64,000 bases of DNA, taken from contig JAUNHE010000006.1 in assembly GCA_030524105.1 (NCBI GenBank), forward strand, positions 124,001-188,000, written 5' to 3'. This DNA comes from Rothia sp. (in: high G+C Gram-positive bacteria) (lineage in GTDB: Bacteria; Actinomycetota; Actinomycetes; Actinomycetales; Micrococcaceae). Position 1 is the stretch's first letter. Each line of letters starts with the position of its first letter. Both the position numbers and the translations under genes were made by a program. Below the pieces are notes generated by a model. The model was given only the letters and a program-made list of their open reading frames with translations, was not told the origin of the DNA and made no database searches. Positions 26,930 to 30,100 of the stretch are shown piece after piece.

Positions 26930-26940
26930 AGGAAAAATAT

Positions 26941-27057
26941 TCCGGCGATGTCCTACTCTCCCACACCGTCGCCAGTGCAGTACCATCGGCGCAAAGAGCC
27001 TTAGCTTCTGGGTTCGGGATGGAACCAGGCGTTTCCCTCTTGCTATAATCACCGAAA
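26941..27057 (-). rRNA. rrf: 5S ribosomal RNA, copy 1
   Basis: The minus strand begins TTTCGGTGATTATAGC. It contains the conserved GAACCCAGAAGCTAAG and CGATGGTACTGCA segments and ends GAGAGTAGGACATCGCCGGA. It is identical to copy 2. No 23S or 16S gene is in the window, so this 5S is detached from an rrn operon. The tRNA-Ala gene ends two bases upstream. Confidence 0.95.
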
Positions 27058-27059
27058 AG

Positions 27060-27132
27060 TGGAGGCGAGGGGACTCGAACCCCTAACCCTCTGCTTGCAA
27101 AGCAGATGCGCTACCAATTGCGCCACGCCCCC
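27060..27132 (-). tRNA. tRNA-Ala (anticodon TGC)
   Basis: This 73-base cloverleaf has acceptor GGGGGCG/CGCCTCC with the alanine identity pair G3.U70 and D stem GCGC/GCGC. The anticodon arm is TCTGC-TTTGCAA-GCAGA (TGC at 34-36), and the T arm is AGGGG-TTCGAGT-CCCCT. Discriminator A73 is not followed by an encoded CCA. Its 3' end lies two bases from the 5S gene. Confidence 0.95.
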
Positions 27133-29621: not shown

Positions 29622-29660
29622 ATAAAAACGGGGACCTTGACCATAGATCAAGATCCCCGT
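29622..29660 (-). terminator. Terminator of the tRNA-like/5S unit
   Basis: On the minus strand ACGGGGATCTTGA (29660-29648) pairs with TCAAGGTCCCCGT (29640-29628) with one G.U or mismatch. TTTTTATA follows. It is placed 12 bases beyond the 5S end, as at copy 1. Confidence 0.85.
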
Positions 29661-29671
29661 ATCAATAATAT

Positions 29672-29788
29672 TCCGGCGATGTCCTACTCTCCCACACCGT
29701 CGCCAGTGCAGTACCATCGGCGCAAAGAGCCTTAGCTTCTGGGTTCGGGATGGAACCAGGCGTTTCCCTCTTGCTATAATCACCGAAA
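29672..29788 (-). rRNA. rrf: 5S ribosomal RNA, copy 2
   Basis: The sequence is the same as copy 1 over all 117 bases by eye. A tRNA-like element ends two bases upstream and a terminator follows. It is again not part of a 16S-23S operon inside this window. Confidence 0.95.
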
Positions 29789-29790
29789 AG

Positions 29791-29862
29791 TGGAGGAGAA
29801 GGGAATCGAACCCCTATCTTCTGCTAAGAAGCAGACGCACTACCAATTGCGCTACATCCCCC
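29791..29862 (-). tRNA. tRNA-Ala-derived element with aberrant anticodon loop (pseudo or non-canonical tRNA)
   Basis: This 71-72 base copy of the neighbouring tRNA-Ala keeps the D loop (AATTGGTA), the anticodon stem TCTGC/GCAGA, the T arm and the G3.U70 pair. Acceptor pair 6:67 changed from C-G to A-U on both sides. The anticodon loop is only six bases (TTCTTA), one extra base lies between acceptor and D stem, and the variable loop has four bases. Forced into a cloverleaf it would read as Lys(CTT). It occupies the place after DLW-39 where relatives carry tRNA-Ala. Confidence 0.7.
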
Positions 29863-29873
29863 GCGTGTTTACC

Positions 29874-29902
29874 ACTATACCATTTTAAACCGAGTCTGTC
29901 GA
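29874..29902 (-). promoter_or_regulatory. Promoter of the tRNA-like/5S unit
   Basis: On the minus strand TCGACA (29902-29897) and TATAGT (29879-29874) are 17 bases apart, 12 bases before the tRNA-like element. The -35 box lies inside the last codons of the DLW-39 gene. Confidence 0.7.
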
Positions 29903-30001
29903 CTCTTTCCAAGATTTTTTATTTTCTTGGTTATCTCGAAGTTTTTGAGCTGCAACTAAGCTTGCCGCTGCGGCAACCAGCACCACAAGAAACTTCTTCA
30001 T
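29885..30001 (-). CDS. DLW-39 family small membrane protein
   Basis: A 38-residue ORF runs from ATG 30001 to TAA 29885, with GGAG upstream. It begins MKKFLVVLVAAAASLVAAQKL and ends in a charged Lys/Glu tail with one Trp (KKSWKESTDSV). Proteins of about this size and shape (DLW-39) are found between tRNA-Ile and tRNA-Ala downstream of gyrA in many Actinobacteria. It has one N-terminal TM helix. The function is unknown. Confidence 0.85.
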   Translation of the reverse strand: MKKFLVVLVAAAASLVAAQKLRDNQENKKSWKESTDSV

Positions 30002-30026: not shown

Positions 30027-30100
30027 TGGGCGTACCAGGAATTGAACCTGGGACCTCTACATTATCAGTGTAGCGCTCTAACCGTCTGAGCTATACGCCC
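30027..30100 (-). tRNA. tRNA-Ile (anticodon GAT)
   Basis: This 74-base cloverleaf has acceptor GGGCGTA/TACGCCC, D stem GCTC/GAGC, anticodon arm CTACA-CTGATAA-TGTAG, T arm CCAGG-TTCAATT-CCTGG and discriminator A. CCA is not encoded. It has the usual actinobacterial position after gyrA-DUF3566. Confidence 0.96.

Follow-up and report, generated by a model that had tools for sequence, protein, structure and literature searches.

A tRNA-Ala-like element with a six-base anticodon loop ahead of a 5S rRNA gene in a Rothia genome, a possible RNA-processing domain

Results

Two tRNA-Ala-5S modules at the gyrA locus

We analyzed a 64,000-nucleotide stretch (the window) of contig JAUNHE010000006.1 from Rothia sp. 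assembly GCA_030524105.1, a 2.19-Mb draft in 11 contigs (G000), which carries a tRNA-Ala-like element directly ahead of a 5S rRNA gene. On the minus strand, the genes run in the order gyrB, gyrA, a conserved open reading frame (ORF) of 177 aa, tRNA-Ile, a 38-aa ORF, the tRNA-like element, and 5S, followed by a pit-type transporter, small ORFs, an intact tRNA-Ala(TGC), and a second 5S gene (Table 1). The locus therefore holds two tRNA-Ala-5S modules 2.7 kb apart (29671-29862 and 26940-27132), in each of which 3 nt separate the tRNA copy from its 5S. The variant occupies the ancestral tRNA-Ala position beside tRNA-Ile, and the sequence of the intact copy matches the copies of several relatives exactly. 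A similar small ORF at the place of the 38-aa ORF was also found in the relatives that we inspected. The two 5S copies are identical over their whole length, the sole difference found lying outside them. They were the only 5S genes present in the draft, and a search of the assembly for 23S rRNA found none, suggesting that the rrn operons, with their 5S genes, are missing or collapsed in it.

Table 1. Features of the gyrA locus in the window and the related element in two other genomes
Feature	Position	Strand	Remarks
tRNA-Ala-like element without a normal anticodon loop	29791..29862	-	TTCTTA loop, AGAT variable loop, extra U, G3.U70 and A73
Spacer of 3 nt, from A73 of the tRNA-like element to 5S	29788..29790	-	
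5S rRNA copy 1	29671..29787	-	117 nt, identical to copy 2
Candidate sigma-70-like promoter, TCGACA-17-TATAGT	29874..29902	-	consensus match only, 10/12, TG before -10
Intrinsic-terminator-like hairpin after 5S copy 1	29628..29660	-	15 pairs and U run
tRNA-Ile(GAT), upstream neighbor of the tRNA-like element	30027..30100	-	
38-aa ORF between tRNA-Ile and the tRNA-like element	29885..30001	-	read from sequence
Intact tRNA-Ala(TGC), second module	27060..27132	-	
5S rRNA copy 2, second module	26940..27056	-	
Free-standing UUCG tRNA-Ala-like gene	L118:1227-1297 (G012); G023:C11:167619-167689	reverse strand of L129 (G023)	

A tRNA-Ala derivative with an altered anticodon loop

By direct reading, the element parses as GGGGGATGTA GCGC AATTGGTA GTGC G TCTGC TTCTTA GCAGA AGAT AGGGG TTCGATT CCCTT CTCCTCC A. 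The Rfam tRNA model gave 51.9 bits for 29791-29861 and 72.4 bits for the intact tRNA-Ala copy, the gathering score being 29. ARAGORN reported the element as "tRNA-???" with a two-base anticodon, and annotation programs would list other genes of this kind as undetermined tRNAs in the same manner. It differs from tRNA-Ala(UGC) by 12 substitutions, an inserted U, and two deletions, one in the anticodon loop and the other in the variable loop, which is shortened from GGGTT to AGAT. In place of a seven-base loop with a UGC anticodon stands TTCTTA, six bases without TGC, whose ends can pair U-A and leave a four-base loop, as in the minimum-energy prediction. The D-stem pair 12:23 is now G.U, and G1-C72, G2-C71, G3.U70, and A73 are all unchanged, so that the alanine identity elements G3.U70 and A73 are both present. 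All 21 stem pairs are standard (21/21) if the extra U is taken as bulged, and the predicted minimum-energy fold is a cloverleaf in which the inner acceptor stem is shifted. Judged by its sequence, the element is a derivative of tRNA-Ala(UGC) that does not decode normally.

An earlier note on this DNA, made from the letters alone, had described a tRNA-Ala-derived element with retained alanine identity and the six-base loop TTCTTA, and our reading of the sequence agrees with it, as do Rfam and ARAGORN. Direct reading also bore out the details that it gave, namely, the kept G3.U70, the change of pair 6:67 on both sides from C-G to A-U, and the T-stem pair 50:64 as G.U (G50.U64). The one extra base that it placed between the acceptor and D stems is there as well; a bulged U is the best reading, which leaves U8 and A9 in place. 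Its view that alanine identity is retained and that the molecule could decode poorly is supported by G3.U70 and A73 together with the loop geometry. The note did not mention the shortened variable loop, the G.U pair at 12:23, the U-A pairing of the loop ends, the position next to tRNA-Ile, or the 5S genes behind both copies.

Selection on the fold

We simulated the divergence by placing 12 substitutions on tRNA-Ala under spectra ranging from neutral to AT-biased, with no penalty for the inserted U. All 21 pairs were left standard in only 0.1 to 0.26% of the simulations (P = 0.001 to 0.0026), and given four stem hits, the probability of finding no broken pair was about 0.01 to 0.02. Because the pairing has survived the 12 substitutions beyond chance expectation, selection probably maintained the fold over at least some of the divergence; the earlier note had suggested as much from pair 6:67, and the simulation makes it likely. 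On the other side of the record, 9 of the 12 substitutions are changes from GC to AT, and the GC content at third codon positions (GC3) of gyrA is 0.41 in the window genome, 0.76 in its nearest relative, and 0.56 to 0.86 in the relatives measured. In the gyrA tree, no other genome of the genus has an end branch as long as that of the window genome.

Invariant spacing between tRNA-Ala and 5S in the genus

At the gyrA locus, or in fragments of it, tRNA-Ala-5S modules were found in 25 genus genomes, including the window genome. In all 48 of their modules (48/48), the distance from A73 to the motif CGGTGAT is exactly 5 nt, and the sequence filling it differs among modules (CTCTT, CGTTT, CTTTC, or CTTTT). 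The two tRNA-Ala copies are identical to each other in each of the 21 other genomes in which both modules could be read in one stretch (21/21), and the window genome is the only one of the genus where the two were seen to differ. In its nearest relative (G002), the bases before the second 5S are read as N, and its second tRNA cannot be checked. The modules are conserved through much of the genus, with both parts evolving in concert. No tRNA precedes 5S in the rrn-operon copies that we inspected. At a site outside the gyrA locus, G002 has a further 5S with a tRNA-Ala-like match 3 nt ahead of it, which scored 71.6 bits in the covariance search of the genus (G002:C1:444392-444584).

A UUCG-looped tRNA-Ala-like gene in two sister species

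A second tRNA-Ala-like gene, GGGGGTGTGGCGCAACTGGTAGCGCAGCTGCCTTCGGGCAGAAG(A/C)TAGAGGTTCGAGTCCTTTCGCCTCCA, lies about 160 nt downstream of an intact tRNA-Ala in G012 and G023, which are sister species (support 99/96 in the gyrA tree). We saw it first in G023, and a pattern search with fixed spacing across 395 family genomes then brought up the G012 copy. The anticodon loop of the gene reads C-UUCG-G, and the RNA should be unable to decode. The two copies are identical at 70 of 71 positions, against a 42% difference at gyrA fourfold sites and 64 to 67% identity in the flanks; on this comparison, the element is under strong purifying selection. By eye, it is flanked by the terminator-like hairpin of tRNA-Ala on one side and by its own hairpin on the other. 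Around the G012 copy, a simple scan gave neither a consensus promoter nor a terminator, and we infer that the element is transcribed. Its T-stem has A49-U65, G50.U64, and A51-U63, with 51:63 changed on both sides relative to tRNA-Ala, so that both of the weak EF-Tu pairs, A49-U65 and A51-U63, are present; G2-C71 and the D-loop GG are retained. In the same loci (L118 and L129), GTTAACC/GTTCACC repeats, which by their look we take to be putative PhoP boxes, stand upstream of a pit-type phosphate transporter gene and are conserved between the two species.

In both the window copy and the UUCG element, the anticodon loop has six bases, the variable loop has four (AGAT in G023 and the window copy, AGCT in G012), and pair 50:64 is G50.U64. 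The gyrA tree assigns their genomes to separate deep clades of the genus, and no variant was found in the other genomes. At least three identical shared substitutions arose by chance in about 15% of fold-preserving simulations, and on this ground we do not regard homology of the two as proven. The two deletions also lie at matching places, which makes coincidence less likely and falls outside the simulation. Convergence and common origin would both be possible.

No other case was found in the samples of the family, order, and phylum. With zero mismatches, the exact-geometry pattern found only G000, G012, and G023 among the 395 family genomes. In a phylum sample of 396 genomes, its only other match differs at 3 positions and does not evidently represent a tRNA. 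The UUCG pattern had no match in 396 order genomes, a sample that lacks G012 and G023 and hence has no positive control. In a covariance search of the 35 genus genomes, G000, G012, and G023 led by 10 bits, followed by ordinary tRNA-Ala. Wide conservation of the variant geometry was thus rejected by the family, order, and phylum pattern searches, and a mobile or phage origin by the lack of any match in the IMG/VR pattern searches or in phage records.

Discussion

A possible 5' processing domain of a 5S unit

The reading of the window copy that we favor, tentatively and at somewhat under an even chance, is that of a non-decoding tRNA-Ala copy retained as a 5' domain for RNA processing in a 5S unit. 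The unit would be transcribed from the candidate promoter as a leader, the tRNA-like part, and 5S. The acceptor/T-arm fold would be recognized by RNase P and by a tRNA 3' endonuclease of the RNase Z type, and cleavage after A73 would put the 5' end of 5S within a few bases. The decoding tRNA-Ala(UGC) would be supplied by the twin module 2.7 kb away, and because of this supply, changes in the anticodon loop, variable loop, and linker could be tolerated; these positions would be free to change under AT drift while the stems stay paired, the selection on the fold acting through the release of 5S. This reading draws on the kept stem pairing with its two-sided change at 6:67 and the cloverleaf prediction, on the invariant tRNA-5S spacing with a varying spacer sequence, on the rrn-operon 5S copies without a preceding tRNA, on the identity of the two 5S copies, and on the candidate promoter just upstream and the strong terminator-like hairpin just downstream. 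Plant mitochondrial t-elements, moreover, set a precedent.

Several observations weigh against it. Cleavage could be weakened by the extra U, which may bulge the acceptor stem, and the variant before 5S is known from one genome only. The promoter match is little above what chance would give for the region, since 800 bases hold 2 promoter-like sites compared with 1.3 expected from shuffled sequence; the candidate would count by its position just upstream of the element rather than by its mere existence. Furthermore, the G012/G023 element has a similar loop geometry with no 5S behind it, which calls for a different explanation or for coincidence.

Alternative explanations

The main rival is plain decay, in which a redundant second tRNA-Ala(UGC) escaped gene conversion and drifted toward AT, the intact stems being left over or due to chance. 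The excess of GC-to-AT changes (9 of 12) together with one insertion and two deletions would fit such a history, as would an AT-rich genome with the longest end branch in the genus, an intact second copy, and the only differing pair of module copies in the genus. However, decay leaves it to chance that no pair was broken by 12 substitutions, at the probabilities given above, and that the terminator-like hairpin and the candidate promoter remain intact; the Rfam score is also still 23 bits above the gathering score. We regard decay as somewhat unlikely. Continued decoding by the RNA, as an atypical tRNA-Ala whose loop has six bases, for instance, with a CUU anticodon or by frameshifting, is very improbable. 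The loop TTCTTA does contain a C-T-T triplet and ARAGORN assigns a two-base anticodon, but the misreading of lysine codons as alanine should be costly, the genome already has tRNA-Lys(CTT), and the predicted four-base loop is closed by U-A.

A further alternative takes the window copy as a non-decoding alanine donor, charged by alanyl-tRNA synthetase for transferases of the Fem/MurM type in the wall or of the MprF type in lipid modification, with the UUCG element having the same function. A comparable supply of glycine by special tRNA-Gly isoacceptors has been proposed for Staphylococcus aureus. The window copy has kept G3.U70, A73, and G2-C71, the last being an essential identity element for the Weissella FemX (PMC4052509), and the features that it shares with the UUCG element, i.e., the six-base loop, G50.U64, and the AGAT variable loop of G023, would fit a common role. 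In the Staphylococcus aureus non-proteinogenic tRNA-Gly, A49-U65 and A51-U63 replace strong EF-Tu pairs (review, PMC4052509), and both pairs are found in the G012/G023 element, along with the UUCG loop and the strong purifying selection. In the window copy, by contrast, A49-U65 is present but 51:63 is still G-C, and the D-loop GG (18-19) is kept both there and in the G012/G023 element. The substitutions shared by the two are explainable by chance, as simulated above, which leaves a common function or origin short of established.

The transferases themselves do not separate the genomes. The earlier note had called for a search for FemX/MurM-type enzymes, and these are indeed present, FemAB (PF02388) occurring in all 35 genus genomes (35/35) with two family members in the window genome (G000:C10:17147-17746 and G000:C11:39399-40007), but equally in genomes without a variant tRNA, so that their presence does not discriminate the variant carriers. 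An MprF-type domain occurs in 22 of the 35, among them the window genome, G012, and G023. We rejected the presence of Fem or MprF as proof of a wall role, Fem being universal in the genus and the MprF pattern not matching the variant, and we also rejected alanine tailing of the RqcH type as the user of the RNA, NFACT-R being found in none of the 35 genomes (0/35). With 51:63 unchanged, and with the 5S context offering a simpler reason for the retention of the fold, the donor role is distinctly unlikely for the window copy, and the dedicated wall-synthesis tRNA that the earlier note had considered possible is unproven for this genome. For the G012/G023 gene, the same role is credible from its sequence and is the leading reading; if true, an aminoacyl carrier would have been withdrawn from translation by outright deletion of its anticodon. 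A broader idea, quite doubtful in our estimate, is that the genus evolved, perhaps twice, tRNA-Ala alanine carriers with a closed four-base loop that are barred from the ribosome and serve wall or lipid aminoacylation, with the UUCG gene as the clear example and the window gene as another, which would also serve to cut out 5S.

Comparison with known systems

tRNA-like genes outside translation are already known, among them plant mitochondrial t-elements, the tRNA-Other of Bacillus cereus, the S. aureus tRNA-Gly isoacceptors, and tmRNA. In the open-licence literature, we found no bacterial tRNA-Ala copy that has lost its anticodon loop and precedes 5S, and no conserved UUCG-looped tRNA-Ala-like gene, and the UUCG element of G012 and G023 may be a new small RNA.

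The t-elements are degenerate tRNAs that define the ends of rRNAs and mRNAs via RNase P and RNase Z, and they are known to receive a CCA tail without being aminoacylated (PMC11658184). Like these tRNA-like sequences at transcript ends, the window copy is a tRNA homologue that abuts the end of a mature RNA, here before 5S, at a spacing kept throughout the genus. It differs in being bacterial and chromosomal, in being the one altered copy of a duplicated module, in having kept its alanine identity pairs, and in that its cleavage is inferred. The B. cereus tRNA-Other, a pseudo-tRNA, is likewise a bacterial tRNA-like gene outside translation (PMC3399842), but it has a Trp anticodon, lies at a genomic island, and belongs to a longer regulatory RNA, whereas the window copy has lost its anticodon loop and sits in a tRNA-5S unit. 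The S. aureus isoacceptors offer a parallel in the possible diversion of a charged tRNA, and their A49-U65 and A51-U63 recur in the G012/G023 element; they are, however, tRNA-Gly species with the D-loop GG replaced, while the window copy keeps G51-C63 and the GG and has a defective anticodon loop. The tRNA-like domain of tmRNA is charged with alanine and has no anticodon (PMC3985003, PMC3929946); the window element, in contrast, is a full cloverleaf of 72 nt without an mRNA-like part and is not a tmRNA by ARAGORN or Rfam. If the processing role is true, a bacterium would punctuate an rRNA by means of a non-decoding tRNA, a device described for plant mitochondria.
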